A DNA stretch of 64,000 nt from Achromobacter aloeverae (GTDB lineage: Bacteria; Pseudomonadota; Gammaproteobacteria; Burkholderiales; Burkholderiaceae_B): assembly GCF_004121055.1 (NCBI RefSeq), contig NZ_PYAL01000005.1:62001-126000 (forward strand). Direction: 5' to 3'. Positions 4,918 through 38,241 of this stretch are shown piece after piece. The translations under genes and the position numbers were made by a program. The notes beneath the pieces are model-generated. The model saw nothing but the letters and a program-made list of their open reading frames with translations. It ran no database searches and had not been told where the DNA came from. How positions within the stretch are numbered: position 1 is the stretch's first letter; the number at the start of each line of letters is the position of its first letter.

Positions 4918-4958
4918 CTCTCCGCCCAGGCTTACCGCCATTTGTATCGAGATTCCTC

Positions 4959-7075: not shown

Positions 7076-7077
7076 CC

Positions 7078-7100: not shown

Positions 7101-7114
7101 CCGCCGCGACGACG

Positions 7115-8533: not shown

Positions 8534-8553
8534 GATGGAGAAATCGTGGAATT

Positions 8554-9972: not shown

Positions 9973-10528
9973 CTGGACTCCCTAGCAAACCGCGGCCGTT
10001 ACACATTTGTTGCGGCGCGGGTACATTCTTCGAGGCAGCGCTGGCGTCCCAGCCTTACGGCCATCGATCTTACAGATGATGCTACGTAACCGATGTAGCA
10101 TGCGAGCGTATCTATATATTTTAATTTAAGTCGCCAATATACTAGAATCGATTGTTGCGGTGCGTGTGTATGAGGGCTGTCACCTTGTCCCGTCCGCCTG
10201 AGACGCAAGGTTATGCTCCAAGAATGCGGCCTAATGTCCCGCAGCTCCGCCTTGCCAACCGTGCGTGGGGCCTATGCAAGGCCACAGAAGAGTTCGACCT
10301 GCCATGGCCTTGACCCGTAATCTTTCATTACGTGGACCCCGGTACGCGCCGGCTGCGATGTTCCGTGCACCCACATTTCGGCCTAAGCCTTCTGGCACCA
10401 TATCCGTGGGCGAGCATTACCCATTTCAGTCCCCCGAAGTTACATCCCAGTCGCGTCCCGCCTCGTTCTCCACGACCGCGTACCGTGCCGGGCCAGGGCG
10501 TCGCTGACGGCGCCGGAGAAGGAGCATC
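9973..10528. promoter_or_regulatory. Divergent regulatory region between manC and the cellulose operon
   Basis: 556 bases with no credible gene. It is AT-rich in the middle (about 10105-10150, with TATATATTTTAATTTAA), unlike the flanking DNA. A perfect 7-bp inverted repeat ATGCTAC ... GTAGCAT with a 9-nt centre lies at 10079-10101 and looks like an operator. Promoters for both the leftward manC-wcaJ unit and the rightward bcs operon must lie here. No single sigma-70 promoter could be fixed with confidence. Confidence 0.5.
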
Positions 10529-10984
10529 GTGGAAAGCGCCATCCTGTCCCACCTCAACGACCGACTCTGCGCCAGCCAATGGCGTGTAGCCCTGGCCGCC
10601 TTCGCACAGGAATTGGCGCAGGACCTGACGCCGCAGCGCCTGCGCGCCTTGATGCGCCGCGCGGGCGAGCGTTTCGCCGCCGCGCACGTGTTGCCGCAGG
10701 CTGCTTCCATCGAAGACTTGCAGGCGGCGATCAATCAGTTGTGGCAGACCGTGGACTGGGGCTGGGTGACCATCACCGAAGCCGATGACCACCTTGCGCT
10801 GACGCACTATTGCGCGCCCTTGCGCGCCGCATTCGGCCCCGAGCACCTGGCGTGGAGCGCCGGCTTCCTGGAAGGCGTCTACGAACTGTGGATGCGCCAA
10901 CTGGGCGCCGACCGCCAATTGCACGTGACACAACCGCAAGCCCCCGACCCGGTCGGGACCATCGTCTACCGCTTCGGCCGGTAG
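10529..10984 (+). CDS. bcsD: Cellulose synthase-associated protein BcsD
   Basis: 151 aa, close to the 156 aa of Komagataeibacter AcsD/BcsD, hydrophilic and mostly helical with no signal peptide. The C-terminal HLAWSAGFLEGVYELWM block resembles the BcsD family. In Komagataeibacter BcsD forms an octameric periplasmic or cytoplasmic ring that helps align glucan chains into ribbons. The GTG start is preceded by a strong AGAAGGAG. First gene of the cellulose operon, 53 bases before the bcsP-like gene. Its presence marks a type I-like bcs operon. The assignment rests on family pattern and position. Confidence 0.78.
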   Translation: MESAILSHLNDRLCASQWRVALAAFAQELAQDLTPQRLRALMRRAGERFAAAHVLPQAASIEDLQAAINQLWQTVDWGWVTITEADDHLALTHYCAPLRAAFGPEHLAWSAGFLEGVYELWMRQLGADRQLHVTQPQAPDPVGTIVYRFGR

Positions 10985-11037
10985 CCATCATCGACTTGCA
11001 GGCCGGGCCCGGGGGGGCCCGCACAGGGGGGTAGCGA

Positions 11038-11838
11038 GTGAACCGCGATACCAGCGATATCACCAGCCTGTACCGGCAGTTCGGGGGGGACCCTGGGCAA
11101 TACCGGGAAATCGGCCGGGCCACCAACGCAGGAATGGCGCGCGAGCGCTGGCCGCTGCTGGGTCACGTGCGGCCGGGTGAGCGCTATGTGCCGCCCAAGG
11201 CCGGCAGCAGCGCCGCCGACCGTCCCGTGGCGGCGGCCAGCTGGCCGCCGCTGGCGATTGCTCCCACCTTGGACCTGTTGCCGTCCGGACAGCCGCTGGC
11301 CGAGCCCGTTCGCCCCGGCTCGGTCGCCAGCGCCGAAGCGGTCGCCGCGCTCATCCACAGCGCGCGCGTCGACCGCCCCGCCCTGGACGCCCTGACGCTG
11401 CCGCCGGTGACCCGCAAGGACACCACGGCGAATGAAGACTCGATCGGCAATGTCGAATTCGTGGCCGCCGCAGCCGCTGCGGCAGCGGTGGCGGCGGCTG
11501 CGCCGGCAGGCCCGGAAATCGGCCCGGATGCAAGCGCCATGGTTCCGGTTGCGGAAACAGCCGTCCCGGAAATGCCCGCCGCGATTACGCCTGCCACGCA
11601 GACGCCGGCCACTACCGTGGCGCCGGCTCCTGCGCCGGCCGCGCCCGCCACCGCCGCCGCCGTGGATCCCGCCCAAGCCAGGCCCCCGACGCCGCCTCCG
11701 CGGGTCGTTACGCCTATCGCCCCCGCGCCAGCCGCGAACACGTCCCTGCACGATGTGTTCGCGCGCCTGGCCCAGGCCCCCCGTTCGGCAGCGGATCCGA
11801 AGACCGATTCGACGCCCCGCAAGACGACGCAAAAGTGA
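11038..11838 (+). CDS. bcsP: Proline/alanine-rich cellulose biosynthesis protein, BcsP/BcsO-like
   Basis: 266 aa. A short conserved N-terminus (DITSLYRQFGG ... YREIGR ... RWPLL) is shared with BcsO/BcsP and recalls the RWPLL end of BcsR. It is followed by a low-complexity Ala/Pro-rich stretch (about 140-235) and a C-terminal LHDVFARLAQ motif. No signal peptide or membrane segment is seen, so it is probably a cytoplasmic accessory factor that binds BcsQ or the synthase. GTG start; it overlaps bcsQ by 4 bases, so the two are translationally coupled. The function of BcsP is poorly known. Confidence 0.65.
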   Translation: MNRDTSDITSLYRQFGGDPGQYREIGRATNAGMARERWPLLGHVRPGERYVPPKAGSSAADRPVAAASWPPLAIAPTLDLLPSGQPLAEPVRPGSVASAEAVAALIHSARVDRPALDALTLPPVTRKDTTANEDSIGNVEFVAAAAAAAAVAAAAPAGPEIGPDASAMVPVAETAVPEMPAAITPATQTPATTVAPAPAPAAPATAAAVDPAQARPPTPPPRVVTPIAPAPAANTSLHDVFARLAQAPRSAADPKTDSTPRKTTQK

Positions 11839-12614
11839 AGACCATAGCCATCGTTTCCGCCAAGGGCGGTGTAGGAAAGACCACGGTAGCCGCCAACCTC
11901 GGCCTGGCGCTGCGCCTGGCTGGCCAGCCCACGCTGGTGGTGGACTTCGATCCGCAGAACGCCTTGCGCTTCCATCTGGGCGCCGACCGCCAGACGGGCA
12001 TCAGCGGCCTGGCGCGCGCCTCGCTGACCGGCGCCCCGTGGCGCGATATCAGCGTCCAGGGCGATTCCGGCGTGCACCTGTTGCCATTCGGCCAGATCAA
12101 CGAAGACGACCGCATCGCCCTGGAACAGCAGATGAACCAGGACAAGCATTGGCTGGCCCGCCATCTGGAAGCACTGGCGCTGCCGGACGACACGCTGGTC
12201 ATCCTCGACACGCCGCCTGGCCCTTCCGCCTACCTGCGCCAGGCCCTGGCCTGCGCCGACCTGGCCATCATCGTGACCTTGCCCGACGCCGCGTCCTACG
12301 CCACGCTGCCCTTGATCGAAAGCCTGATTACGCAGTACTGCGAAGGCCGTCCCGGGTTCCTGGGCCACGCCTACATCGTCAACCAGGTCGACCGGTCGCG
12401 CCCGCTGGCCAAGGACGCCGTGCAGGTCATCCGCAATGCCCTGGGTAACCGCGTCATCGGCGCGGTGCACCTGGACCCGACCGTCGGCGAAGCGCTGGCC
12501 TTCGGCAAGACCGTCATCGAACACGCGCCGCACAGCCAGGCCCGCACCGACCTGGCCGCGTGCACCCACTGGGTGATCCAGCAATTGCGCACCGCCGGAG
12601 GCTCCCGGGCATGA
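11835..12614 (+). CDS. bcsQ: MinD/ParA-like ATPase of cellulose synthesis, BcsQ
   Basis: 259 aa with a deviant Walker A (AKGGVGKTT, residues 9-17), switch II-like ILDTPPGPS and the VDFDPQNALRFHLG block characteristic of YhjQ/BcsQ/WssA. In E. coli BcsQ is needed for assembly and polar localisation of the synthase, in complex with BcsR. GTG start overlapping the bcsP stop by 4 bases, and its own stop overlaps the bcsA ATG by 4 bases, giving tight stoichiometric coupling P-Q-A. Confidence 0.92.
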   Translation: MKTIAIVSAKGGVGKTTVAANLGLALRLAGQPTLVVDFDPQNALRFHLGADRQTGISGLARASLTGAPWRDISVQGDSGVHLLPFGQINEDDRIALEQQMNQDKHWLARHLEALALPDDTLVILDTPPGPSAYLRQALACADLAIIVTLPDAASYATLPLIESLITQYCEGRPGFLGHAYIVNQVDRSRPLAKDAVQVIRNALGNRVIGAVHLDPTVGEALAFGKTVIEHAPHSQARTDLAACTHWVIQQLRTAGGSRA

Positions 12615-14809
12615 AATCCTCGACCACCGAAACCTCGGCCGGCAGCGGCCGCGTTTCCCGCTGGGGCAACCGCCTGCTGTCCTGGCGCATCTGGAAAATG
12701 GGCTGGGCGCGCGTACTGGCCACGGTAGTGTCCTGCATACTCTTCGTGCTCACCGTGGCCGTCGAGATGGACCTGTTCCAGCAGTTCGTCTTCGCCCTCG
12801 CGTGCGTGGTCATGACCTTGCTGCTACACCGGGTGGCGGGCCGCCTGGCCACGCTGGTGATGATCATGCTGTCCATCACCACGTCGGTGCGCTACATGTA
12901 CTGGCGTATCACGGACACCCTCGGCTTTCACGGCATCCTCGACAGTATCTTCGGCTATGGCCTGTTGTTCGCGGAAATCTACGCGCTGGCCATGATGCTG
13001 CTGAGCTACTTCCAGAGCGCATGGCCGCTACGCCGCAAGCCCGCGCCACTGCCGGCCGACATGACGCACTGGCCCACGGTCGACATATTCATCCCCACGT
13101 ACAACGAGCCGCTGGATGTGGTGCGGCAGTCGGTGCTGACCGCACTGGCGATGGATTGGCCGGCCGACCGCTTCAAGGTCTATGTGCTGGATGACGGGCG
13201 CCGCCCTGAATTCCGCGAATTCTGCGAAAAAGCCGGCGCCGGCTACCTGACCCGTCCGGACAACAGGCACGCCAAGGCCGGCAACATCAATGCCGCGCTG
13301 GAAAAGACCGACAGCGACTTCGTCGCCATCTTCGATTGCGACCACATCCCCGTGCGATCCTTCCTGCAGATCTGCATGGGCTGGTTCGTCAAGGACAAGA
13401 AGCTGGCCATGCTGCAGACGCCGCACGTCTTCTTCTCTCCCGATCCCTTCGAACGCAACCTGGACACGTTCCGCAACGTACCCAACGAAGGCGAGCTCTT
13501 CTACGGAGTAGTGCAGGACGGCAACGACCTGTGGAACGCCACCTTCTTCTGCGGCTCGTGCGCGGTGATCCGCCGCTCGGCCTTGCTGGAAGTCGGCGGC
13601 GTGGCCACCGAAAGCGTGACCGAGGACGCGCTGACCGCGTTGAAAATGAACCGCGCCGGCTACAACACGGCCTACCTGGCCGTGCCGCAGGCCGCCGGGC
13701 TGGCCACCGAGAACCTGTCGCGCCACATCGGCCAGCGCACGCGCTGGGCGCGTGGCATGGCGCAGATCATCCGCGTCAACAATCCGCTGCTGGGCAAGGG
13801 CCTGCGGCTGGGCCAGCGCATGTGCTACCTGAGCGCGATGCTGCACTTCTTCTTCGGCCTGCCGCGCGTGATCTTCCTGACCACGCCGCTGGCCTATCTC
13901 TTCTTCCACGCCAACGTCTTCCAGGCCTCGGCCATCATGGTGGCGGCGTATGCGCTCCCCCACATCATCCTGTCCAACCTGACGGGCTCGCGCATCCAGG
14001 GCAAGTTCCGCCATTCGTTCTGGAACGAAGTCTACGAATCGGTGCTGGCCTGGTACATCATGAAGCCCGCGATGATGGCGCTGCTGCGTCCCAAGGCGCC
14101 GCAGTTCAACGTGACGGCCAAGGGCGGCATCATCCGCGAATCGTATTTCGACTGGACGCTGGCGCGGCCCTACGTGGTGCTGCTGGCCTTGAACCTGGCG
14201 GGCCTGATCGTCGGCGTGGTCGGCCTGGTCCTGGAGACCGGCGGCGCCGACCAGCGCTTCACCATCGTGCTCAACCTGGCATGGACGGTCTACAACATCA
14301 TCATGACCAGCGCCAGCGTCGCCGTGGCCGGCGAAGTGCGCCAGCTGCGCAATGCGCCACGCGTGGCGATCACGCTGCCGGCCATGCTGGGCCTGCCGGA
14401 TGGCCGCACCGTCGCGTGCGACACCAGCGATTTCTCGCAGGGCGGGCTGGGCCTGGTCCTGCCCGCGGGCGTGATCGTGCCCACCGGCATGCAGGTCAAC
14501 GTCTCGGTGTTCCGCAACGAGGAAGAGGCCATTTTCCCCGCGCTGGTCACCTTCAGCCAGGGTGGGCGCCTGGGCGTCAGCTTCCGCGACCTGACGCTGG
14601 AACAGGAAAAGGAACTGGTGCAGATGACCTTCGGCCGCGCCGACACCTGGGCCTTGACCTGGGGCAGCATGGCGCCCGATTCGCCCATGGCCGCGCTCTA
14701 CCAGATCACCCACATCGGAATGCGCGGCTTCACGCTGCTGCTGCGCCAATTGCGTGACCGTACCCTCGCGGGCCTGCGTCGTCCCGCGTCCGTGTTCACC
14801 AAGCAATGA
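12611..14809 (+). CDS. bcsA: Cellulose synthase catalytic subunit with PilZ domain
   Basis: 732 aa from the ATG overlapping bcsQ. Membrane helices flank a GT2 domain with DDG (194-196), DCD (242-244), TED (337-339) and QRTRW (375-379), the complete catalytic set for processive beta-1,4-glucan synthesis from UDP-glucose. A C-terminal PilZ domain has both c-di-GMP motifs intact: RNAPR (580-584, RxxxR) and DFSQGG (607-612, DxSxxG), so allosteric activation by c-di-GMP is expected. Inner-membrane enzyme that extrudes glucan to the BcsB crown. Overlaps bcsB by 4 bases. Confidence 0.96.
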   Translation: MKSSTTETSAGSGRVSRWGNRLLSWRIWKMGWARVLATVVSCILFVLTVAVEMDLFQQFVFALACVVMTLLLHRVAGRLATLVMIMLSITTSVRYMYWRITDTLGFHGILDSIFGYGLLFAEIYALAMMLLSYFQSAWPLRRKPAPLPADMTHWPTVDIFIPTYNEPLDVVRQSVLTALAMDWPADRFKVYVLDDGRRPEFREFCEKAGAGYLTRPDNRHAKAGNINAALEKTDSDFVAIFDCDHIPVRSFLQICMGWFVKDKKLAMLQTPHVFFSPDPFERNLDTFRNVPNEGELFYGVVQDGNDLWNATFFCGSCAVIRRSALLEVGGVATESVTEDALTALKMNRAGYNTAYLAVPQAAGLATENLSRHIGQRTRWARGMAQIIRVNNPLLGKGLRLGQRMCYLSAMLHFFFGLPRVIFLTTPLAYLFFHANVFQASAIMVAAYALPHIILSNLTGSRIQGKFRHSFWNEVYESVLAWYIMKPAMMALLRPKAPQFNVTAKGGIIRESYFDWTLARPYVVLLALNLAGLIVGVVGLVLETGGADQRFTIVLNLAWTVYNIIMTSASVAVAGEVRQLRNAPRVAITLPAMLGLPDGRTVACDTSDFSQGGLGLVLPAGVIVPTGMQVNVSVFRNEEEAIFPALVTFSQGGRLGVSFRDLTLEQEKELVQMTFGRADTWALTWGSMAPDSPMAALYQITHIGMRGFTLLLRQLRDRTLAGLRRPASVFTKQ

Positions 14810-17157
14810 AGGACGATAGATCGATGACCCCCAGGCCCGAAGCGCGACCGCTCCTGCTGCGCCGCTCGCGCGTATTGCCCGCCCTGGTATCGGCCCTGCT
14901 ATCGCTGGGCGCGCCGCGCGCCATGGCGGCGCCCGCCGACAATTCCGCGCCGCCGGCCGCCGCGCCCAAGCCAATCCCGGCCGCGGCTGCGCAAGCCGCG
15001 CCGGCCTTGCCGCCCGGCGCCTATACGTACTCGATCCCGCTTTCGCGCCTGAGCGGCCAGACGGCGCTGCCGCTGCGTGGCGTCGACGGCATCAACGGCC
15101 TGGGCTTCGGCCAGCGCATCGACCAGTCCATCATCGGCGCGGATGTTCATCTGAACTACACGTATTCGCCCTCGCTGCTGCCCGACCTGTCGCACCTGAA
15201 GATCATCCTCAACGGCGAGGTGGCCCAGAGCATTCCCTTGCCCAAGGAAACCGCGGCCGATCCCGTTGAACGGACCGTCGCACTGCCGGTGCCGGCGTTG
15301 GCCGAGTTCAACCGGCTCGACATCCAGCTGGTCGGCCACTACACGTTGGGCTGCGAGGATCCGCTGCACTCCAGCCTGTGGGCGGACATCGCCGGCCGCA
15401 GCACGCTGGACCTCACGGTCACGCCGGTCGACCTGCCCAATGACCTCGCGCTGCTGCCCGCGCCGTTCTTCGACAGCCACGACATCCGCCAGCTCAACCT
15501 GCCCATCGTGCTGGGCCGCGCGCCCGACGCCGCACGGCTGGAAAGCGCGGGCATCGTTTCATCCTGGTTCGGCGCGCAGGCGGGCTATCGCGGCGCCAAG
15601 TTCACCGCCAGCATCCAGGACGTACCCGCCCATGGCAATGCCATCGTGCTGCTGCAACAGGGCGACAACCTCCCGGGGCTGCAAGCGCCCGCTGCCCAGG
15701 GCCCGACGCTGGCCATGGTGGCCAACCCCAACGATCCGCATGGCAAACTGCTGCTGGTCATGGGGCGCGATGCCAAGGAGCTGAAGCAGGCCGCCACCGC
15801 GCTGGCATTGGGCAACCAGACCCTGTCCGGCCCAACCGTGCGCATCACCGAGCTGGCGACCCTTTCGCCGCGCAAGCCCTACGACGCGCCGAACTGGCTG
15901 CGCAGCGACAGGCCGGTGCTATTCGGCGAACTGGCCGCGCCGCGCACGCTCAACGTCTACGGCCATCGTCCCGCGCCGATCAATGTCAGCCTGCGCATGC
16001 CGCCCGGCCTGTTCGGCTGGCACAGCGACGGCGTGCCGGTGCAATTGAAATATCGCTATTCGCCGCGTCCCAGCGCGACGCAATCCGTCATGGAAATGGT
16101 GGCCGGCGAGCAGTTGGTGCGCAGCTTCCGTCTCAACGACGGTTCGCCGTCCTTCTACGACAAGCTGTCCAACCAGCCCACGTCCGAAGGCCAGGCGACG
16201 GTGATGGTGCCGCCCTACCTGTTGCCGCCGCTCACCGCGCTGCAATTCCGCTATGTCTACGAATACGCCAAGCTGGGCGAATGCCAGAACAGCATCGTCG
16301 ACAACATCCAGAGCGCCATCGATCCCGGTTCCAGCATCGACATCTCGGGCCTGCCCAAATATGCCGCCATGCCCGACCTGTCGTTGTTCGCCGACGCGGG
16401 GTTCCCGTTCACGCGCATGGCCGACCTGTCGGAAACCGCGGTGGTCCTGCCCGACAACGCCACCGTCGCCGACTACTCGGCGTATCTGACGCTGCTGGGC
16501 ACGATGGGCCAGTCCACGGGCTATCCCGCGACCGGTGTGACGGTGGCCCAGGCCACGCAGGTGGAAGGCCTGAAGGACAAGGACCTGCTGGTGCTGGCCT
16601 CGGGCGCCAACCAGCCGCTGGTCAAGCAATGGAGCGCCTACCTGCCCAATGGCTTTGATGGCGCGCAGCGCAAGTTCGCCCTGTCGGACTGGTTCTCCGG
16701 CGTCGTCAACTGGTTCGGCCCCGATCCGCGCGATCGCAAGCGCACCGCGGACCTGAAGCTGACCTACGCCGGTAGCGGCGCCAACGCCACGCTGGCCGGG
16801 CTGGAGTCCCCCTTGAAATCAGGACGCAGCGTGGTGCTGGTATCGGGCGCCGACAGCGATGGCCTGGATGCGGCGGTCAACGCCGTGCTGGCCAACCGCG
16901 ACACGAACAACAAGGTGGAAGACCTGCAAAGCAAGATCGGCGGCAACCTTACGGTGGTCTCCGGCAAGCAGGCGCTGACCGTGCTCGACGACCAGAACTA
17001 CTACGTCGGCTCGCTGCCGCCGTGGTTGGGCTTGCAGTGGTTCTTCTCCAACCACCCCCTGACGCTGGTCGGCGCCCTGGTGCTCAGCGCCCTCGTCATC
17101 GCCGTACTGCTCTACCTGTCCCTGCGCGCCCGTGCGCAACGCCGCCTCGGATCCTGA
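14806..17157 (+). CDS. bcsB: Cellulose synthase periplasmic subunit BcsB, copy 1
   Basis: 783 aa; an ATG six codons later is an alternative start. Signal peptide (VSALLSLGAPRAMA), two carbohydrate-binding/flavodoxin-like modules, and a C-terminal membrane anchor (LTLVGALVLSALVIAVLLYL). Conserved BcsB blocks include LPLRGVDG, YTYSPSLLPDLSHL, CEDPLHSSLW and KPYDAPNWLRSDRPV. It guides the nascent glucan through the periplasm and in E. coli oligomerises on one BcsA. Directly followed, with 2 bases between, by a second full-length bcsB. Confidence 0.95.
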   Translation: MKDDRSMTPRPEARPLLLRRSRVLPALVSALLSLGAPRAMAAPADNSAPPAAAPKPIPAAAAQAAPALPPGAYTYSIPLSRLSGQTALPLRGVDGINGLGFGQRIDQSIIGADVHLNYTYSPSLLPDLSHLKIILNGEVAQSIPLPKETAADPVERTVALPVPALAEFNRLDIQLVGHYTLGCEDPLHSSLWADIAGRSTLDLTVTPVDLPNDLALLPAPFFDSHDIRQLNLPIVLGRAPDAARLESAGIVSSWFGAQAGYRGAKFTASIQDVPAHGNAIVLLQQGDNLPGLQAPAAQGPTLAMVANPNDPHGKLLLVMGRDAKELKQAATALALGNQTLSGPTVRITELATLSPRKPYDAPNWLRSDRPVLFGELAAPRTLNVYGHRPAPINVSLRMPPGLFGWHSDGVPVQLKYRYSPRPSATQSVMEMVAGEQLVRSFRLNDGSPSFYDKLSNQPTSEGQATVMVPPYLLPPLTALQFRYVYEYAKLGECQNSIVDNIQSAIDPGSSIDISGLPKYAAMPDLSLFADAGFPFTRMADLSETAVVLPDNATVADYSAYLTLLGTMGQSTGYPATGVTVAQATQVEGLKDKDLLVLASGANQPLVKQWSAYLPNGFDGAQRKFALSDWFSGVVNWFGPDPRDRKRTADLKLTYAGSGANATLAGLESPLKSGRSVVLVSGADSDGLDAAVNAVLANRDTNNKVEDLQSKIGGNLTVVSGKQALTVLDDQNYYVGSLPPWLGLQWFFSNHPLTLVGALVLSALVIAVLLYLSLRARAQRRLGS

Positions 17158-17159
17158 AC

Positions 17160-19478
17160 ATGTCCAACGTACAACGCCAAGAATTCACCCAACGCCACGC
17201 GATTGCGAAGTGGTCCGCGCTGTTGATGAGTTGCGTGTTGGGCGCGCAGGCCGTTGCGCAACCCGCCAACCGCGCCGCCGCCAACGCCACCAACGCCGCC
17301 GCGACGCAGCCCGCTGCACAAGCTGCCGCCGCCCCCTTCAAGCCCGACATCACCTACACGCTCGAGCAGCTGGGCGCGCAATACCCGCTCAATCTGCGCG
17401 GCGTGGACGGCAGCAATACCCTGAACTTCAGCGTCCGCAATGACGAAGTGGTGACCGGCGCGCGGCTGGACATGCGCTACACCTATTCGCCGTCGCTGCT
17501 GGCGGATATTTCGCACATCAATGTGCTGGTCAACGACGAAGTCGCCGCGACCATCCCGGTGCCCAAGGAGACCGGCGGCGTCAACCTGCAGCGCACGGTC
17601 GAGATCCCGCCGTACCTGATCACCGCTTTCAGCAATCTGCGCTTGCAGCTGATCGGCCACTACACCATGGACTGCGAGGACCCGCTGCACTCCAGCCTGT
17701 GGGCCAACATCAGCAACCAGAGCAAGCTGGAACTGGCCACCTCGCAGGTGCAGCTGCCCGACGAGCTGGCCAACCTGCCTGAACCCTTCTTCGATCGCCG
17801 CGACCGGCGCGAACTGCAATTGCCCTTCGTTTTCGCGGCCAATCCCGACACCGCCATGCTGGAAGCGGCGGGCGCGGTGTCGTCGTGGTTCGGCGCGTTG
17901 GCGGGCTATCGCGGCGCGCGTTTCACGGCCTCGGTCGGCCAGATTCCCGCACAGGGCAACGCCGTGGTATTGGCTGTCGGCAACAACGCGCCCGGCACCT
18001 CGGGCACGCCGCTGCAAGGCCCCACGCTGGCCGTGACGGCCAACCCGACCGATCCCAACGGCAAGCTGCTGCTGGTGATGGGCCGCAACGCCAAGGAACT
18101 GAAGCAGGCCGCCAATGCGCTGGTGACCGGCAGCCAGGCGCTGACCGGCGCTTCCGCCACCATCACCCAGGTGGCCGACCTGCAGCCGCGCAAGCCCTAT
18201 GACGCGCCCAAGTGGCTACGCACGGACCGTCCTGTCTCATTCGGTGAACTGATCGAGGCCAAGCGCCTGAACGTGTCGGGCTACAGCCCCGACACCATAC
18301 GCATCGACGTGCGCGTGCCGCCGGACCTGTTCGGCTGGCGCGAGGACAAGGTGCCCGTGAACCTGCATTATCGCTACACGCCGCAACCCACGTCCGTGAA
18401 TTCCTCGCTGCTGTTCAGCGTGGACAACCAGTTCGTCAAGTCGATACCGTTGTTCGCGCTGGAACGCATCGCGGACGGCGAGAAGCTGCGCGCCCAGGTG
18501 CTGCCGGATGAAAGCCTGCCCATGCAGGCTCGGCTGGACGTGCCGCTGGAGCTGTTGAAGTCGCGGTCGCAGCTGCAGTTCCGCTACATGTACGACTACA
18601 TCAAGCAAGGCGAATGTCGCGACATCATCATCGACAACGTACGCGGCGCCATCGATCCTGAGTCGACCATCGACGTCAGCGCCTACCCGCACTTCATCGC
18701 CATGCCGGATCTGGCGGCCTTCTCGCAAGCCGGCTTTCCGTTCACGCGCATGGCGGACCTGTCGGAGACCGCGGTGGTTCTCGGCAGCAATGCCGCCGCG
18801 CAGGAATACGGGGCCTACCTGACCGTGATGGGCCGCATGGGCGAGTCGACCGGCTATCCCGCCACCGGCGTCACGGTGGTGCGTGCGCAGCAAGCCTCGT
18901 CGGCGCCGGCCGGCAAGGACCTGCTGGTGATCGCGTCGGGCGCCGACCAGGCCTGGTTGAAGGACTGGGCGGCGCGCATGCCTGCCGCCTATGAAAACAA
19001 CGGGCGCTTCACGGTATCGGACCTGGTCTACCGCGTGCTGGGCTGGTTCCACGTCGATCCACGCCAGGATGAAACGCCGCCGCGCACCGCAATGGCCTAT
19101 ACCAGCAGCGGCGTCAGCGCCGTGGTGGCGGGCTTCGAATCGCCGCGCGAAAGCCAGCGCAGCGTGGTGCTGATCGCCAGCAACCAGCCCCAGGGCCTGC
19201 AGGATGCCACGTCAGCGCTGATCGGCGGGAAGGACTATGACCGCCCCATCCAGGGCAGCCTGGCCGTCATCCGCGGCAAGCAGGTCGACTCGCTGGTGGG
19301 CGACCACCAGTACTACGTCGGCAGCCTGAGTTTCTTCAAGCGCATCGACTGGTGGTTGTCGTCGATCAATCCGAACCTGACGCTGATCGGCGTGGTGGTC
19401 ACGCTGGCGATCGTGCTTGCCATGCTGGCCCTCCTGTTGAGCCTGCTGCGTCGCAAGCCCAAGTCGCCCTCGATCTGA
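17160..19478 (+). CDS. bcsB: Cellulose synthase periplasmic subunit BcsB, tandem copy 2
   Basis: 772 aa from ATG; a long in-frame extension upstream runs inside copy 1 and is not credible. Signal peptide (ALLMSCVLGAQAVAQ), the same blocks as copy 1 (LNLRGVDG, YTYSPSLLADISHI, CEDPLHSSLW, KPYDAPKWLRTDRPV) and its own C-terminal anchor (LTLIGVVVTLAIVLAMLALLL). The two copies are collinear over their whole length but clearly diverged, so the duplication is old and both seem maintained. They may form a mixed periplasmic crown or serve different conditions. Confidence 0.94.
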   Translation: MSNVQRQEFTQRHAIAKWSALLMSCVLGAQAVAQPANRAAANATNAAATQPAAQAAAAPFKPDITYTLEQLGAQYPLNLRGVDGSNTLNFSVRNDEVVTGARLDMRYTYSPSLLADISHINVLVNDEVAATIPVPKETGGVNLQRTVEIPPYLITAFSNLRLQLIGHYTMDCEDPLHSSLWANISNQSKLELATSQVQLPDELANLPEPFFDRRDRRELQLPFVFAANPDTAMLEAAGAVSSWFGALAGYRGARFTASVGQIPAQGNAVVLAVGNNAPGTSGTPLQGPTLAVTANPTDPNGKLLLVMGRNAKELKQAANALVTGSQALTGASATITQVADLQPRKPYDAPKWLRTDRPVSFGELIEAKRLNVSGYSPDTIRIDVRVPPDLFGWREDKVPVNLHYRYTPQPTSVNSSLLFSVDNQFVKSIPLFALERIADGEKLRAQVLPDESLPMQARLDVPLELLKSRSQLQFRYMYDYIKQGECRDIIIDNVRGAIDPESTIDVSAYPHFIAMPDLAAFSQAGFPFTRMADLSETAVVLGSNAAAQEYGAYLTVMGRMGESTGYPATGVTVVRAQQASSAPAGKDLLVIASGADQAWLKDWAARMPAAYENNGRFTVSDLVYRVLGWFHVDPRQDETPPRTAMAYTSSGVSAVVAGFESPRESQRSVVLIASNQPQGLQDATSALIGGKDYDRPIQGSLAVIRGKQVDSLVGDHQYYVGSLSFFKRIDWWLSSINPNLTLIGVVVTLAIVLAMLALLLSLLRRKPKSPSI

Positions 19479-19497
19479 AGCAGGGATGCGGACGACC

Positions 19498-20784
19498 ATG
19501 CCCACGACGATGCTCGCGCCCTCGCGCCCATCTGGCCTGCCTCGCCCGGCTCGCGCCTTCATGCCCGTGGCCTGCGCGTTGCGCCGGGCGGCCGCGTGGC
19601 TGGTGCTGGCGTTGGCGGCCCCCGTGGCGGCGCAGGCAGCCCCGGCCGCCCAGGCGCCCACCTGCGCGCCGCCCGCCTGGTCCAGATGGGACGCCTTCAA
19701 GCAACACTACGTGCAGAAGGACGGCCGCGTGCTCGATGCCAGCACGCCGCGCCAGCACAGTTCATCGGAGGGTATGTCCTATGGCATGTTCTTCGCGCTG
19801 GTGGCGGATGACCGCGAGACGTTCGACCGCCTCTGGCACTGGAGCGTGGACAACCTGGCGGGCGGCGACATCTCGAAGCACCTGCCCGCGTGGTTCTGGG
19901 GCCTGCGCGATGACGGGACCTGGGGCGTGATCGACGCCAACTCGGCTTCGGACGCCGATCTGTGGTTCATCTATGCGCTGCTGGAAGCGGCGCGCGTGTG
20001 GCACAGGCCGGATTACGAGCGCGATGGCAAGGCGCTGCTGGCGCTCGTGGAAACACGCGAAGTCGCCGAATTTGGCGGTCCCGGCGGATTCGGCGCCATG
20101 CTGCTGCCGGGCGCCGATGGATTCGTGCAGCCGAATCAATGGCGCGCCAATCCCAGCTACCTGCCCATGCCCGTGCTGCGCCGCCTGGCGCAAGCATCGC
20201 CGCAGGGCCCGTGGAACAAGATCGCAGACAATACCTTGCGCCTGATCCAGCAAAGCAGCCCACGCGGCTATGCGGCCGACTGGGTAGCCTATGACGTCGA
20301 CAAGGATGGCGTAGGCAAGTTCGGACCCGATCCGGCCAAGGGCGCCGTGGGCAGCTATGACGCCGTGCGTACATACATGTGGGCCGGCATGACCGCGGTG
20401 GACGATCCCTTGGCGAAGCCGATGATGCAAGCCCTGGGCGGCCTCGCGCAAGCCACCGCGCAAAATGGCGTGCCGCCCGAGAAGGTCGATGTCCATACCG
20501 GCGCGCTGTCGGGCACGGGGCCGTTCGGTTTCTCGGCAGCGCTACTGCCTTATTTGCAGGCATCGGGTCAGCAGGAACTGCTGGAAAGCCAGCTTGGCCG
20601 CGTGCGATACGCATGGTACGCAAGCCTGGCGCCAGCGCAGGTGGCACGGCACCAGCCGCCTTATTATGATTACGTGCTCAGCATGTTCGGCACCGCGTGG
20701 CTGGACGGTCGCTATCGCTTCCGGCGTACGGGGCAAATCCAATTAGAGTGGGAGAAATCATGTCCGCACGCCGTCACACGGTAG
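19498..20784 (+). CDS. bcsZ: Periplasmic endo-beta-1,4-glucanase BcsZ (GH8)
   Basis: 428 aa from the ATG with AGGGA 11 nt upstream; an ATG 12 bases earlier is in frame but has no room for a ribosome site. A long positively charged N-terminus leads to a hydrophobic export segment ending near VAAQAA. GH8 features: the catalytic Glu in HSSSEGMSYG (residue 91), WFWGLRDDGTWGVIDANSASDADLW, and the second acid in the GSYDAVRTYMWAGM block. It trims or edits glucan chains in the periplasm. Overlaps bcsC by 25 bases. Confidence 0.94.
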   Translation: MPTTMLAPSRPSGLPRPARAFMPVACALRRAAAWLVLALAAPVAAQAAPAAQAPTCAPPAWSRWDAFKQHYVQKDGRVLDASTPRQHSSSEGMSYGMFFALVADDRETFDRLWHWSVDNLAGGDISKHLPAWFWGLRDDGTWGVIDANSASDADLWFIYALLEAARVWHRPDYERDGKALLALVETREVAEFGGPGGFGAMLLPGADGFVQPNQWRANPSYLPMPVLRRLAQASPQGPWNKIADNTLRLIQQSSPRGYAADWVAYDVDKDGVGKFGPDPAKGAVGSYDAVRTYMWAGMTAVDDPLAKPMMQALGGLAQATAQNGVPPEKVDVHTGALSGTGPFGFSAALLPYLQASGQQELLESQLGRVRYAWYASLAPAQVARHQPPYYDYVLSMFGTAWLDGRYRFRRTGQIQLEWEKSCPHAVTR

Positions 20785-31123: not shown

Positions 31124-31350
31124 TTCAAACTCCAGTCCGGTTAAGCCGGTCCAGGGGGCGGTACCCACCGCGCGCCTGCTGGACCGTCGCTCTATGGACT
31201 GCATTGTGCGCTTCACCGAATCTAGGATAAACCCTAGCTATCGAAAAAGATTTATCCAAAAAATCGACTAATAGTCGGACCGCATGACGGATTGGGTGCC
31301 CGGATGAGGCACTCGAAGGGGACAGCCATCACCGGCGCGAGCAAAAGTGC

Positions 31351-31582
31351 TGTGGATAACCTCTAAGCGGCGGACTTGTGCACACCGTGTGGAACGAATC
31401 TGGACAAAACCCGCTTTCAGGGCCGTCCCGAAAAGTTGCTCAACTTTGCCCAGCGCCGGAAACAGACTTCCTCCACATCTGAAAAGCCACGTAAGCCACT
31501 GAAATTCAAACCCTTTCTGCTGTTGATGCAGTTATCCACAGACACCCACCATAATCATTCTTTTTATATAGAAAAGAAGGTG
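31351..31582 (+). repeat. Origin module A
   Basis: First of two collinear copies. It opens with TGTGGATAA, has TTGTGCACA at 31376, CCGAAAAGTTGCTCAACT at 31428-31445, GTTGATGCAGTTATCCACAG at 31522-31541 and ends in an AT-rich stretch TTTTTATATAGAAAAGAAGG. It aligns without gaps to module B at an offset of 708 bp; by hand count about two-thirds of 210 positions match, with the DnaA boxes and the AT-rich end best conserved. Confidence 0.85.
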
Positions 31583-32058
31583 TGAAAACATTCTTTCCCC
31601 TCGGCCACCGCCCACCCCACCCCGTGAGAACAGTAGGTTCAACAGAATTTTGGGGACATATAAGGCCTGCCGGAGACATGTGATGTCTTCCACCAACGCT
31701 CCTGTTCACCCGCAAACGTATTTCCCGTCCCACAGCGTGATGGCGAAGCCACCCGGACGCCCGAGGTACACCCTCGGCGACCAAATCGCGCCAAAGCGTG
31801 GATAACCAGGTCCCTGGGCGTTAGCCAGCTATCAGGAGGCAGGGAAATCGCCAGCCATGTCCTGACCCTGCGTACTGAATGCGCATTTTTGCGTAGCCAG
31901 AGGGGGCGTTTGCTCTTTTATCCACAGAATCGACGAAAAAACGGGCTCGGCCCGTGCAAATTGGGCTGATCCGCCGCGCGACGCAGCGCCCTTATCCACG
32001 AACGCAGCGCCATCCCGCAGGATGGCTGTACAGCAAAGGCAAGGAATGCGTGAAGTCC

Positions 32059-32291
32059 TGTGGATAAGCACTAAGTCGCCTACATGTGCACAGCATGTGG
32101 ACGGTACAGGCATAAATACCGCTTTCGATGTCGAACCGAAAAGTTGCTCAACTACCGTTCACACGCCAAACAGAAGCGCTGCACAAGCAAAAACGTCCGT
32201 AAGTTTCTGAAATCCCGAACGTTTCCGTAGTTGATGCAGTTATCCACAGACCTTATCCATCATTAGTCTTTATATATAGAAGAGATAGGTG
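32059..32291 (+). repeat. Origin module B
   Basis: Second copy of the origin module, in the same orientation: TGTGGATAA at its left end, ATGTGCACA at 32084, CCGAAAAGTTGCTCAACT at 32136-32153, GTTGATGCAGTTATCCACAG at 32230-32249 plus an adjacent TTATCCATC, then TTTATATATAGAAGAGATAGG. The spacing between its two perfect DnaA boxes (181 bp start to start) is identical to that in module A. Confidence 0.85.
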
Positions 32292-32506
32292 AACAACTTA
32301 GGAAGCGGAACTCCGGGGACAAGGATGCGCGGACCAAGTCGCCATCCGATGGCTTGTTTATCCCGGGATATCCAATGCCAACGGCACGGACCCGCAGGCA
32401 TTGGTCTCTTCTTGACACCTGGGCGAAGAAAAGGGCAGCGCGAGGGCCTAACCCTTGCCTGCCCTTTTGGTGCGTAACCTGGACCCGGCCCATGGTCCTC
32501 GGCAAG

Positions 32507-32548
32507 AAAAAGCCCCTTCAGGGCCATAGCGTGCCTTGAAGGGGCCTT
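32507..32548 (-). terminator. Rho-independent terminator of the aminotransferase gene
   Basis: Read leftward: GGCCCCTTCA(A)GGC stem pairing with GCC(C)TGAAGGGGC, then TTTTTCTT. It lies about 60 bases beyond the stop of the leftward aminotransferase gene and shields the origin from its transcription. A perfect DnaA box at 32561-32569 lies between the stop codon and this hairpin. Confidence 0.8.
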
Positions 32549-32609
32549 TCAGGTTGGGGGTTATCCACACCCGTGCGCGATCTGGTGGCCGACCGCGTAC
32601 TTTGTACGT

Positions 32610-33809
32610 TCAAACGCGCTGCAGTTTTTCCAGGGCCGCGTCCAGCGTCTCATCCCGCTTCGCGAAACAGAAGCGGACCAGGCGGTGATTGGATTCGGGC
32701 GCGTCCGGCCGTTGATAGAACGCGGAGATGGGGATAACCGTTACCCCATGATCCACGGTCAGCCACCGGGAAAAGTCCGCCTCGGGCAGGTCCGAGATGG
32801 CCGAGTAGTCCGCCATGAGGAAAAACGTGCCGGGGCTGGGCAGGGGTTTGAAGCGCGTCTTGGCCAGTCCTTCGCTAAGACGGTCCCGCTTGGCCTGGTA
32901 GAACGCCGGCAGGTCCATGTACGGCTGCGGGTCTTTCATGAATTCGGCCAGGGCGAACTGCATGGGGGACGAGACGGTGAAAACCATGAACTGGTGCACT
33001 TTGCGCAGTTCGAGGCTGAGCTGGCGCGGCGCGCAGCAATAGCCGATTTTCCAGCCGGTGGTGTGATACGTCTTGCCGAAGGATGAGATGACGAAGGTAT
33101 GTTCGGCCAGCAGGGGACGGCGCGCGAGGCTGGCGTGGGGCTTTCCGTCGAACACGATGTGTTCATAGACTTCGTCGGATACCAGCAGGATGCCCGTGTC
33201 TCGCACGATTTTTTCGAGGGCATCCAGGTCGCTTTCGTCCAGGATGGCGCCGGTAGGGTTGTGCGGGAAGTTCAACATCAGCAGCCGGCTTTTCGGCGTG
33301 ATGGCGTCTCGAACACGCTGCCAGTCGATACGGTAGTACGGATCTGTCCCGGTCGGCGCGCGTAGCGGAACCGGAACGGCCGTCGCTCCCGCCAGGCGGA
33401 TCGCGGGCAGGTAGGAATCGAAGCAGGGCTCGATGACGATGACTTCGTCGCCGGGACCCACGGCGGCCATGACCGTGGCCATCAAGGCCTCGGTTGCGCC
33501 ACTGGTGACCGTGATTTCCGTTTCGGGGTCGTAGGCGTGGCCGTACAGCGCCTTGGTCTTGGTCGCGATGGCTTCGCGCAGCGAAGCCACGCCCGGCATG
33601 TAGGGATACTGGTTGTGGCCGTCGGCCATGGCCTTGTCGACCAGCTTGAGCAGGCGCGGATCGGGATTGAAGTCCGGAAAGCCTTGTCCCAGGTTGACCG
33701 CCTTATGTTCGACGGCCAGGCGGCTCATGACGGTGAAAATGGTGGTGCCCACGTCGGGCAACTTGGATCGGATCATGGTGTGTCGGTTGGGGGTTGTGAC
33801 GTGTGGCAT
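32610..33809 (-). CDS. PLP-dependent methionine-type aminotransferase (YbdL-like)
   Basis: 399 aa from the ATG with GGTGGGA 6 nt upstream; an ATG five codons earlier and one eleven codons later are weaker. Fold-type I class with SKLPDVGTTIFTVMS, LGQGFPDF, SGATEALMA, NFPHNPTG, SDEVYEH and the PLP-lysine in SSFGKTYHTTGWKIGY. The whole length matches E. coli YbdL, which uses methionine, histidine and phenylalanine with 2-oxo acids. It may act in methionine salvage or recycling of 2-oxo-4-methylthiobutyrate. It stands alone, transcribed toward the origin, between two DnaA-box clusters. Confidence 0.88.
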   Translation of the reverse strand: MPHVTTPNRHTMIRSKLPDVGTTIFTVMSRLAVEHKAVNLGQGFPDFNPDPRLLKLVDKAMADGHNQYPYMPGVASLREAIATKTKALYGHAYDPETEITVTSGATEALMATVMAAVGPGDEVIVIEPCFDSYLPAIRLAGATAVPVPLRAPTGTDPYYRIDWQRVRDAITPKSRLLMLNFPHNPTGAILDESDLDALEKIVRDTGILLVSDEVYEHIVFDGKPHASLARRPLLAEHTFVISSFGKTYHTTGWKIGYCCAPRQLSLELRKVHQFMVFTVSSPMQFALAEFMKDPQPYMDLPAFYQAKRDRLSEGLAKTRFKPLPSPGTFFLMADYSAISDLPEADFSRWLTVDHGVTVIPISAFYQRPDAPESNHRLVRFCFAKRDETLDAALEKLQRV

Positions 33810-34136: not shown

Positions 34137-34337
34137 ATGAAGGGCAAAGTGAAGTGGTTCAACGCTGACAAGGGCTATGGTTTCATCACGCCCGATGAGG
34201 GTGGCACGGACGTGTTCGCCCACTTCTCGGCAATTCAAGGCCGCGGCTACCGTAGCCTGAATGAAGGCCAGGACGTCGAATTTGAAGTCAAGGAAGGCCC
34301 GAAGGGGCCCCAGGCGGCGGAGATCCGTCCGCTCTAA
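34137..34337 (+). CDS. cspA: Cold-shock domain protein (CspA family)
   Basis: 66 aa single cold-shock domain. RNP-1 (KGYGFITP) and RNP-2 (DVFAHFSAI) motifs are intact, and the start [17 protein letters not shown] is canonical. Binds single-stranded nucleic acid and acts as an RNA chaperone. Strong Shine-Dalgarno and its own terminator just downstream. Which paralogue it is (cold-induced or constitutive) cannot be told; its place beside the origin gives high gene dosage in fast growth. Confidence 0.95.
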
Positions 34338-34411: not shown

Positions 34412-34439
34412 CATTGCCCTGTGTTCGCGGCCTTGATTA

Positions 34440-34828
34440 TGTGCATAACTATGTGAGTAACTGTGGGAGTTCGATGGATAAGCGCCAGGATTCGGACGCC
34501 GTTGCGGATCGGAAACTGGCCGCCTGAGAGATATCCCCGGATGCAGTTATACACAGCTTGAGCACGCTTATCAGGGGGCGCCGCGTGGCGTTCGCGGATA
34601 GCCGTTCGGGGTCGGATGGGTAATCTTTATAGGGAATTTTGTAAAACAGCGCCGGTTTTTGCCGCTGAGTTGGCATTTTTTCCCATTTGCATGGGCCCCA
34701 CTCGAGGCCTGCCCAGGGCATGAGCTTGGAGGCGGCCTTACGTTATTCACAAAACTATCCCCAGGCTTGTACGGCTTCCCGGACGCTGCGCGAGTTGGCT
34801 CCGTTGTATGGGTCCAGGCTGTGGATTA
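34440..34828. other. Second DnaA-box cluster of the origin region
   Basis: No gene. DnaA boxes fitting TTATNCACA: TGTGCATAA (34440-34448), TTATACACA (34547-34555), TTATTCACA (34743-34751), and near-match TGTGGATTA (34820-34828). The one at 34547 sits in ATGCAGTTATACACAG, the same context as in origin modules A and B. AT-richer tracts occur around 34618-34650 (TCTTTATAGGGAATTTTG). It may be an auxiliary initiation or DnaA-titration site. Confidence 0.6.
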
Positions 34829-35116
34829 CTTTGTCCCCAGTCTTGATTTGCTCTGGGGCGATGGCGCACTTCTTTGCTTCATCAATGAATGCTGTCCGCG
34901 CTCGCGTGTCTGCATCCCCAGGCCAGAGGATACTGGGTGAAGATGTCGCGTGATTTCTCAGAATAGCCGTGGGGACTATTCATGGCACTGGGATGGCGCT
35001 TGCTCCGCTGAGTCCGTCATTGCCCGTGATGGAGGAGGGGACATCACGGATTCAGGGCGGCGTTTGGTTTTGCGCTACAGCGGATCGGTCCTTTGGCTTA
35101 GGACATCTCTCAGCCT

Positions 35117-35132
35117 TGTTTCACGTGGAACA
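35117..35132. promoter_or_regulatory. parS: parS site 1 (one mismatch)
   Basis: TGTTTCACGTGGAACA, one base off the universal parS palindrome TGTTTCACGTGAAACA. ParB-binding centromere site; parB is 5.5 kb to the right. Confidence 0.85.
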
Positions 35133-35263
35133 TTGATAGTCGGTCGCCGGGTGGGACAGCGGACGCGCCGGGCGGGGTACCACTCCGGTCGCAAGCGCGG
35201 AAGCCATCTCGGGAGTATAGGGAATCCTTTGGCGCGAAGGCCCCGGATGGCCGCGGCGGCCGA

Positions 35264-35279
35264 TGTTTCACGTGAAACA
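35264..35279. promoter_or_regulatory. parS: parS site 2 (perfect)
   Basis: TGTTTCACGTGAAACA, a perfect match, extended to an 18-bp palindrome by flanking A and T. It is probably the main ParB nucleation site. Confidence 0.95.
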
Positions 35280-35686
35280 TCAACTCTAGTTAGAGGACCT
35301 GTTCTAGTTATGGATAGAACGAGTGTCGCCGCGTTCCCGCGTGTGGGAATGGCGCACCGCTCGCACCATGCGGGCCCGTGTCCTCATCCGTGTGGCGGCC
35401 AGGTGCTGGGCATAGGTCTTGGTTAGCGCGAGAATCTCGGCCGACGGCCAGGAACGTGTCGGTGGGCTGCAACATGAGGGTGCTCGCAGCGTGGAATATG
35501 CTGCCGATGGCTGGATAGCGGACTCCAGCGCGGCTAGAATCTATCCTTCGCATCGCCGTCGTGTAGGGAGACCCGGGCCGTCGCATTTACGGCGGTGGTT
35601 GAGGGGTGGGCATCCCGGTTAGCTGAGCGGCGTTGGGTGAGCTTCAGTTCAATCCCGATCGATCCGGCATGGTTTGAGCAGCCGGT

Positions 35687-35702
35687 TGTTCCACGTGAAA
35701 CA
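35687..35702. promoter_or_regulatory. parS: parS site 3 (one mismatch)
   Basis: TGTTCCACGTGAAACA, one substitution in the left half-site. Confidence 0.85.
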
Positions 35703-36247
35703 CCTCCCTTGGCTCTGTCACTACGGCGACTTCGTGGGCGGGCGGCCCCCTGACCGCGCGAAGCCTCAGAAATCCATGGCCTAACGACGCATGGGCATGC
35801 GAGCGCGTTAGGACATCATGCGTTATGTGTAGGCAAAGTTCGTAGTGTCCGCGTATGTGTCCATACGGGGCGTTCCGGTGACGACGGTAGCGGCACTGAC
35901 ATGGTCTTGCGTCTAGCGGGTAGCGGGAACGTGATCAGCCATACCGCGTTCAGACACACCGATAGGACGCCACACCTCCGTCGAGAAGGGGTAGGACGTT
36001 GTCAGCTCGCATATATCAGTGGACCTGCGGGAGAGGAGGGCGGTATGCCGCAGGACATTGAGCAGCACTGAGGACCGCGCTGCCTCCGACCGGTGCATTC
36101 GGTCCTCGCTGTGTTGCCGTTACGCAAGGCGCAGTATCCGCGTGACCCGGGTGATCAATCCCTTTCTTGCCTTGTCCGCGGCGGCGGCAAGGCGGGGGAG
36201 GGGCAGGGATGGCGGTGTTAGCCCCCCAGCCTTAGACATCCATCCAC

Positions 36248-36263
36248 TGTTTCACGTGAAACG
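36248..36263. promoter_or_regulatory. parS: parS site 4 next to the mnmG promoter
   Basis: TGTTTCACGTGAAACG, differing only at the last base. It directly abuts the -35 region of the proposed mnmG promoter, so ParB binding could affect transcription of the mnmG-rsmG-parAB unit. Confidence 0.85.
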
Positions 36264-36324: not shown

Positions 36325-38241
36325 ATGGATTATCCGCGTGAGTTCGACGTGATTGTGGTGGGCGGCGGCCATGCCGGAACGGAAGCCGCCTTGGCATCCG
36401 CCCGTGCTGGCGCCAAGACGCTGCTGCTCACCCACAATATCGAGACCCTGGGGCAAATGTCCTGCAATCCCTCCATCGGTGGGATAGGCAAGGGACACCT
36501 GGTCAAGGAGATTGACGCACTCGGCGGCGCCATGGCGATCGCCACGGACGAAGCGGGTATCCAATTCCGCATCCTGAACGGTTCCAAGGGACCTGCCGTC
36601 AGAGCCACCCGCGCGCAGGCCGACCGGGTCCTTTACCGTAAGGCCATCCGTACCCGCCTGGAAAATCAGCCGAATCTCTGGCTGTTCCAGCAAGCCGTGG
36701 ATGACCTTATGGTGGAAGGCGACCGGGTCACCGGCGCCGTAACCCAGATCGGCTTGAAGTTCTTCGCGCGCAAGGTCGTGCTGACCGCGGGCACCTTTCT
36801 CAATGGCTTGATCCACGTCGGCCTGCAGAACTATTCGGCGGGCCGCGCCGGCGATCCGCCGGCCATATCCCTAGGCCAACGGCTGAAGGAACTGAAGCTG
36901 CCGCAAGGCCGGTTGAAAACGGGCACCCCGCCTCGCATCGATGGCCGCACCATCGACTACAGCGTCCTGGAAGAGCAGCCGGGGGACCTGGATCCCATCC
37001 CTGTTTTCTCGTTCATGGGATCCGCGGCCATGCACCCGCGGCAACTGCCTTGCTGGATCACCCATACCAACAGCAGGACCCACGACATCATTCGCGGCGG
37101 CCTCGATCGTTCGCCCATGTACAGCGGCGTCATCGAAGGTATTGGACCTCGCTATTGCCCGTCGATCGAAGACAAGATTCATCGCTTCGCCGACAAGGCC
37201 AGTCACCAGGTCTTCCTGGAACCGGAAGGCTTGGACACGCACGAGGTCTACCCCAACGGCGTGTCGACCAGCCTGCCTTTCGATGTCCAGCTGGACCTGA
37301 TCCACTCCCTGCCCGGCCTGGAAAACGCGCACATTCTTCGCCCAGGCTACGCCATTGAATATGACTACTTCGATCCACGTGGACTGAAGTCGACCCTGGA
37401 GATCCGCGCGATATCCGGGTTGTACTTCGCGGGCCAGATCAACGGTACGACCGGCTATGAAGAGGCGGGCGCGCAAGGCTTGCTGGCCGGCGTAAACGCG
37501 GCGCTGGCCGCACTGGGGAAGGAACCCTGGACCCCGCGCCGCGACGAGGCCTATCTGGGGGTATTGGCGGACGATCTCATTACCCGTGGCGTCACCGAGC
37601 CCTATCGCATGTTTACTTCGCGCGCCGAGTACCGGCTCAGCTTGCGCGAAGACAATGCGGACTTGCGGCTCACCGAGACAGGCCGACGCCTGGGGCTGGT
37701 GGACGATACCCGTTGGGACGCGTTCAACCGCAAACGCGATGCAGTCGAAGCTGAAATACAGCGCTTGCGGTCTACCTGGGTCAACCCGCGCATATTCCCG
37801 GCCGATGTCGCCACACCCTTGCTGGGGCAAGCCATTGAACGTGAGTACTCACTATCAGATCTTCTGAAGCGGCCGAGCGTGTCCTATCGGCAGCTGATGG
37901 ACGCCCGCAACACCGACGGCAGCCTGCTCGCCGGTCCCGGCGTCGAGGACACCGAGGTCGCGCAGCAAATCGAGATCCAGGTCAAATACGCCGGCTACAT
38001 CGCTCGCCAGCAGGACGAGGTGCAAAAGCACCTGACCCACGAGCAGCAGCCGATACCCGCCGACATCGACTACGACGCCGTCACCAGCCTCTCGTTCGAA
38101 GTCAGGCAGAAGCTGAAGACGCACCGTCCCGAAAACATCGGCCAGGCCGCTCGCATTTCCGGCGTCACGCCGGCGGCGATCTCCTTGCTGCTGATACACC
38201 TCAAGCGCCTGCATTACGGCTCGCGCAAGCACGCCGCATGA
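36325..38241 (+). CDS. mnmG: tRNA uridine-5-carboxymethylaminomethyl modification enzyme MnmG (GidA)
   Basis: 638 aa. N-terminal FAD-binding [13 protein letters not shown], followed by [21 protein letters not shown], the [11 protein letters not shown] block and the C-terminal helical domain that binds MnmE. With MnmE it forms cmnm5U34 in tRNAs that read NNA/NNG codons. First gene of a tightly packed unit: rsmG overlaps its end by 4 bases. Its place next to the origin and parS sites matches the gidA locus of related Bordetella-type chromosomes. Confidence 0.97.

Follow-up and report, generated by a model that had tools for sequence, protein, structure and literature searches.

Tandem modules with an Escherichia coli-class oriC layout in Achromobacter aloeverae and their recurrence among relatives

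Bacterial chromosomes, in the textbook view, have one origin of replication each. In Achromobacter aloeverae a 64,000-nucleotide stretch (assembly GCF_004121055.1, contig NZ_PYAL01000005.1, positions 62,001 to 126,000; hereafter the window) contains two closely spaced clusters of DnaA boxes that resemble one another, which raises the question of whether they are two origins, two parts of one origin, or an origin accompanied by a site of another kind. A sequence-only reading had described an internal duplication giving two potential initiation or unwinding sites in an origin devoid of dnaA. The analysis presented here bears out the duplication and the two candidate sites, adds the complete E. 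coli-class layout of each copy, which that reading had missed, and shows the duplication to be not peculiar to the window genome but recurrent through the window's family.

The two copies are collinear and, at an offset of 708 bp, match without gaps at 141 of 210 positions over 31351–31560, the very figure obtained earlier by hand, and at 161 of 239 positions (about 67%) over 31350–31588. The latter interval is the far module, module d (+ strand); the near module, module p (32058–32296, + strand), adjoins an aminotransferase gene, and a module HMM recovers the two with E = 7.6e-57 and E = 8e-57, respectively, both having been part of its training set. In a scan of 19,700 offsets (300 to 19,999) with a 238-base slice, the 708-bp offset yields 160 matches vs. 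89 for the runner-up and a background mean of 58.6 (sd 6.7), and a BLAST search with copy 1 against the whole genome recovers copy 2 (E = 9.4e-24) and no third copy at E ≤ 0.001. Five shared words recur at this distance: TGTGGATAA at 31351 and 32059, CCGAAAAGTTGCTCAACT at 31428 and 32136, GTTGATGCAGTTATCCACAG at 31522 and 32230, TTATCCACA at 31532 and 32240, and TATATAGAA at 31565 and 32273, with TGTGGATAA and TTATCCACA 181 bp apart inside each copy. Allowing one mismatch, the whole window has 18 DnaA-box matches vs. 4.2 expected, and 10 of them fall in 31252–32737. The additional boxes reported between the copies are confirmed at 31797–31805 (− strand, one mismatch), 31918–31926 (+ strand, exact) and 31992–32000 (+ strand, one mismatch), and are found in four, four and three of four congeners, respectively; a further exact box downstream of module p (32561–32569, + strand) is present in the congeners G003 and G004 and absent from G002. 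Stretches of 8,000 bases identical to named records identify G003 as Achromobacter sp. HZ34 and another relative, G034, as Candidimonas humi.

The internal order of each module, from an R4-like box through weaker boxes, an IHF-like site and an R1-like box to an AT-rich predicted unwinding element with trio-like triplets, appears to be that of E. coli oriC. In module d the R4-like box lies at 31351–31359 (− strand, exact TTATCCACA), the IHF-like site at 31492–31504 (− strand, one mismatch to WATCARNNNNTTR), and the R1-like box at 31532–31540 (+ strand, exact); in module p the corresponding elements occupy 32059–32067 (− strand, exact), 32200–32212 (− strand, one mismatch) and 32240–32248 (+ strand, exact), and in both the IHF-like site starts 40 bp before R1. 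The distance between R1 and R4 is 180 bp in E. coli K-12 and 181 bp in both window copies, and it falls between 178 and 182 bp in 88 of 89 copies where both boxes have at most one mismatch each. When modules from relatives were aligned (35 at first, later 42), the best IHF match fell at a single alignment column in 39 of 42, and 31 of 42 had a site with at most one mismatch vs. 4.8% of shuffles that preserve base content only. Between R4 and R1 of E. coli itself there are four IHF-like sites with two mismatches, one of them 31 bp before R1 and distinguished from the other three by its location, which we take to agree with that of the known IHF site. The distance from IHF site to R1 is mostly 39–40 bp in the window's family and 31 bp in all four genomes of family f31, which puts the site in the window's family about one helical turn further from R1 than in E. 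coli or f31. Weaker boxes, scored at up to two mismatches and counted without a control, occur in the R4 orientation at three positions (17–20 of 42 modules) and in the opposite orientation at two (11 and 15 of 42). GATC is absent from both modules. As for the proteins such a layout would call upon, the genome's IhfA and IhfB exceed their NCBIfam cut-offs, and its DnaA is 49% identical to that of E. coli and retains the domain IV stretch GRDHTTVLHA.

Outside R1 both copies turn AT-rich (31541–31590 in d, 32249–32300 in p), the first 40 nt beyond the box being 68% and 70% AT vs. 48% and 52% between R4 and R1. For the DnaA-trio or BUS pattern we relied on the accessible part of PMC8287927, from which we also infer the strand that bears the trios: both window copies carry at least three NAN trios within 16 bp of the box, in trio-like runs of 6 (spacer 10, module d) and 4 (spacer 14, module p). 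Trio-like runs of at least 3 are found in 33 of 42 modules vs. 28% of base content-preserving shuffles, a contrast to be read in light of the looseness of the pattern. Both copies therefore have the R1/R4 geometry, the IHF site near R1 and the AT-rich stretch outside R1 of an E. coli-class oriC, and each of them offers a putative unwinding site, as proposed earlier.

Conservation sets the modules apart from their surroundings. In four congeners (G000, G002, G003 and G004) mean pairwise identity is 0.77 in module d and 0.82 in module p, vs. 0.34 in the spacer and 0.63 and 0.47 in the flanks, and the best-conserved parts are the AT-rich ends, at 0.90 (31537–31576, d) and 0.94 (32257–32296, p). 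Since both modules, AT-rich ends included, are conserved far above the spacer, selection seems to maintain both, and with them the stretches that would have to open. That the second copy is merely a decaying relic of a duplication is thus scarcely credible: the copies are only 67% identical and worn copies do exist in some relatives, as a relic might suggest, but both copies stand far above the spacer in all four congeners, and 28 of 43 examined pairs have the full set of elements on both sides. The offset itself behaves differently. The figure of exactly 708 bp holds in the window and is no conserved one, the corresponding spacing being 653–802 bp in five congeners; given its variation among congeners and genera, we discard it as a functional distance. 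To the left of module d, an inverted repeat, GGATAAA ... TTTATCC at 31225–31257, lies upstream of a DUF4148 gene (Pfam) and is the same in the four congeners save for one base in G003.

Could the modules instead be the halves of one bipartite origin, acting jointly, for instance by looping? Two DnaA-box clusters with a spacer between them, and three spacer boxes shared by three or four of four congeners, would be in keeping with such an arrangement, which we nevertheless judge quite unlikely. In the portion of PMC4285127 available to us, bipartite origins such as those of Bacillus subtilis and Helicobacter pylori have their unwinding element in one part only, whereas here an AT-rich end is found in both. 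Moreover, the distance between modules ranges from 0.36 to 4.7 kb in most of the two-copy genera examined, the spacer sequence is not conserved, and many relatives possess a single module. In the window the predicted unwinding element is not confined to one cluster and dnaA is not the spacer gene, and because either copy by itself shows the full layout of an origin, with R1/R4 spacing and IHF site, the usual sense of bipartite does not fit.

The position of the locus on the chromosome is consistent with an origin, at limited resolution. As the earlier reading held, dnaA does not adjoin the modules: the best match to it is found about 65 kb off on the same contig, outside the window. To the right of the modules come the aminotransferase gene and a cold-shock protein gene (34137–34337, + strand; Pfam CSD PF00313 above cut-off, NCBIfam CspE and CspA below theirs), then mnmG (gidA; 36325–38241, + strand; TIGR00136, 888 bits), rsmG and a gene for a ParA-type ATPase. 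Four parS-like sites, one of them perfect, lie at 35117–36263 ahead of mnmG. The sequence-only reading had proposed the GC-skew minimum as a check, and this held in part: cumulative skew within the window is lowest at 31–33 kb, but in G002, a one-contig genome of the same genus, the absolute minimum is 92 kb from the modules. There, mean skew over 40 sampled stretches of 19 kb is −0.025 to one side of the modules (5.256 Mb) and +0.022 to the other (p = 2e-6), and the sampled curve bottoms out near 5.19 Mb and peaks near 1.81 Mb. Across a contiguous 400 kb the curve reaches its absolute minimum at 5.163 Mb and dips a second time close to the modules. With the minimum 92 kb off and a dip near the modules, skew supports the neighborhood and not the exact base: it narrows the origin down to no better than about 100 kb, too coarsely for global skew to serve as proof of position.

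This leaves room for an origin elsewhere, with the modules as accessories, either at the dnaA locus or at a third, weaker DnaA-box cluster between the cold-shock gene and mnmG (34430–34840), to the left of the parS-like sites. The unsharp skew minimum, the adjacency of mnmG to oriC in E. coli and the partial conservation of the third cluster, several blocks of which are identical in three congeners, can be cited for it. The cluster, however, has one-mismatch boxes only and no R1/R4 geometry, and its identity per 60 bp (0.36–0.70) falls short of the 0.77 and 0.81 that the modules reach in these three congeners; dnaA, in turn, sits at 5.323 Mb on the rising arm of the G002 skew curve. We therefore regard an origin at either place as very unlikely.

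The reading we favor, and hold to be probable, is that the locus consists of two complete oriC cassettes of the E. coli class, arranged in tandem as direct repeats, either of which may be able to open. DnaA would load from the two strong boxes of a module, IHF would bend the module DNA, and the AT-rich stretch outside R1 would open; either module could fire and, at the speed at which replication forks travel, the first fork would copy the other module within about 1 second. As the modules are less than 1 kb apart, the first fork would pass through the other before the second could act, so that the pair would function as a single origin able to unwind at either of two sites, in a winner-takes-all fashion. 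It is also important to note that two modules are not needed, since many relatives, such as all 41 g4 genomes with a match, have one.

The strongest rival to this tandem-cassette reading, which we consider unlikely, makes one module the working origin and the other a binding site for DnaA, with or without IHF, that controls the amount or nucleotide state of DnaA in the manner of datA or of titration. Both copies have the several boxes and the IHF site this would take, and a possible setting for it is seen in genus g65, where two genomes (G225 and G230) have a partial copy directly after dnaA (L072 8331–8509 and L163 1607–1785) that lacks R4 and has an exact IHF site and a poor R1 with two mismatches, at which the match ends; in G225 it is about 60 kb from the other module. 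SeqA was not found in the window genome, so another brake may be needed, and datA works through IHF according to the abstract of PMC13036160. Against a control site stands the conservation of the AT-rich, trio-bearing ends, the best conserved of all (90% and 94%), although a titration site would have no use for an unwinding element; furthermore, it is mostly R4 that has been lost from worn copies, with R1 retained.

The tandem arrangement of the window is one instance of a wider pattern. In the window's family, the exact-box pattern is found in 156 of 268 genomes, with no control match among the matches listed, and a sequence model finds a module in 224 of 268, so that the conservation in relatives suggested earlier as a check is seen both in the four congeners, for both modules, and across the family. 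The model was trained on modules with boxes 174–189 bp apart plus seven HMM-found copies and so leans towards such modules. At least two matches were counted by hand in 73 of the 268 genomes, in 22 of 39 genera; the 73 include two doubtful genomes, G248, where both matches are weak, and G009, whose second copy is an artefact that overlaps the first match on the opposite strand. Some genera are uniformly two-copy (the window genus, 6/6; g2, 10/10; g65, 11/11; g28, 5/5), others uniformly one-copy (g4, 41/41 genomes with a match; g58, 15/15; g15, 9/9), and still others mixed (g57, with two copies in 4 of 10; g29, in 3 of 9; and g5). The exact pattern is seldom found beyond the family: an order-wide sample has it in 10 of 300 genomes (six of the window's family, four of f31) and a class-wide sample in 6 of 229, the window genome included, with control matches in 2 genomes of the latter. 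This rarity does not support a common ancestor with E. coli oriC, and wide homology across the class is set aside as unsupported. Family f31, perhaps Burkholderia-like, has one exact-box module in each of four genomes (L157–L160), in which the IHF site is as far from R1 as in E. coli; in two of its genomes, G544 and G515, the module lies beside mnmC.

Most examined pairs are direct repeats within the 0.36–4.7 kb range, and in a few genomes the copies are 60–90 kb apart. The two modules of G103, G104 and G108 are inverted and separated by 67–88 kb; G103 and G104 belong to small-genome species of genus g57, their distant inverted second module is full, and that of G103 adjoins a sulfide:quinone reductase-like gene (model match below cut-off). 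In G035 the modules are inverted on either side of the aminotransferase gene. The single module of g4 lies some 5.6 kb from the aminotransferase gene, a gap that proved to be no rRNA operon (no tRNA or rRNA match at two g4 loci); in G008 it holds, judged by eye, transporter and two-component genes (L040 2830–8375), and similar distances of 5.5–5.7 kb occur in some other genera.

Wear is unevenly spread over the modules. Among 43 examined two-copy genomes, mostly picked for having two matches, both copies have R4, R1, spacing and IHF site in 28, a tally that disregards the place of the IHF site (55 bp in G007d, 26 bp in G233p), and in 15 a copy fails on some element. Over the 86 copies the failures concern R4 or spacing in 14, the IHF site in 5 and R1 in 2; worn copies thus mostly keep the R1/IHF/DUE half and lose R4, which may in part reflect the easier detection of the R1 end. 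In E. coli, to go by the consulted part of PMC6127211, the left half of oriC (R1, IHF site and DUE side) is the minimal region for unwinding and DnaB loading.

How old, then, is the duplication? In four species of the window genus the near copies cluster in one clade and the far copies in a second, which makes the duplication older than those four species, in line with the earlier surmise of an old event. A single family-wide duplication with lasting near and far identity can be discarded: in an approximately unbiased (AU) test on 46 rows from 23 hand-picked two-copy genomes, one clade of all far copies was rejected (p = 0.0002), a result that fresh duplication and exchange between copies would give alike. 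Of seven genera tested, four had all picked copies in one clade (G103/G104, G013/G244, three g65 genomes and three window-genus genomes, with starred support for G103/G104 only), and in the other three one clade was not rejected (p = 0.11–0.31). The trees conflict on the window genus: its six copies form one clade in the 46-row tree (92/83), whereas the 102-row tree groups its near copies with the modules of g4 and g15, both single-copy genera (88/79), and keeps its far copies separate. These trees are consistent with recurrent duplication or with exchange between copies, and not with a single ancient event followed by stable copies. Tentatively, and as a possibility we would place below an even chance, the whole may be cast as a family whose chromosomes can have two complete, independently competent E. 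coli-class origins, arising repeatedly by local duplication or exchange and retained in every examined species of several genera, with some pairs tens of kb apart and inverted and some second copies shrunk to R1, IHF site and DUE in the likeness of a left-half oriC.

We found no description of paired oriC cassettes in these bacteria in the literature, mostly that outside subscription journals. A family in which the cassette has been repeatedly duplicated and retained supplies natural one- and two-copy relatives for weighing the cost and benefit of a second origin, and the presence of two candidate start sites in many relatives raises the question of how a chromosome copes with both. Worn copies, for their part, give a hint as to the half of an origin that selection preserves longest. 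Two boxes 178–182 bp apart together with an IHF site also make an origin ruler for the window's family and family f31, of use where at least one Burkholderia paper, in its accessible text, leaves the origin position open (PMC4948915).

That paper, as far as its available part goes, leaves the exact origin position on chromosome 1 of Burkholderia cenocepacia open and mentions a second DnaA-box cluster; the origin shares DnaA boxes, an IHF site and an AT-rich block with the window, but its authors call it dispersed, and the accessible text describes no paired R1/R4 cassettes (PMC4948915). With bipartite origins the locus shares two DnaA-box clusters and a spacer, but each window cluster is a full set and finishes in an AT-rich stretch of its own, whose conservation in four congeners is at least 90%, and where dnaA is the usual spacer gene, the window spacer lacks it and is the least conserved stretch. 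datA and DARS have DnaA boxes and IHF sites, as the window modules do, and are not known to contain an unwinding element; both modules, in contrast, keep a conserved AT-rich end. E. coli oriC differs in that the window has two cassettes, neither with GATC and in a genome where no SeqA was found, in that the IHF site is about one turn further from R1, and in that the aminotransferase and cold-shock genes come before mnmG. It nonetheless shares with each of them the R1–R4 distance (180 vs. 181 bp), the IHF-like site inside R1 and the AT-rich stretch outside it, and, with the locus as a whole, the nearby mnmG.
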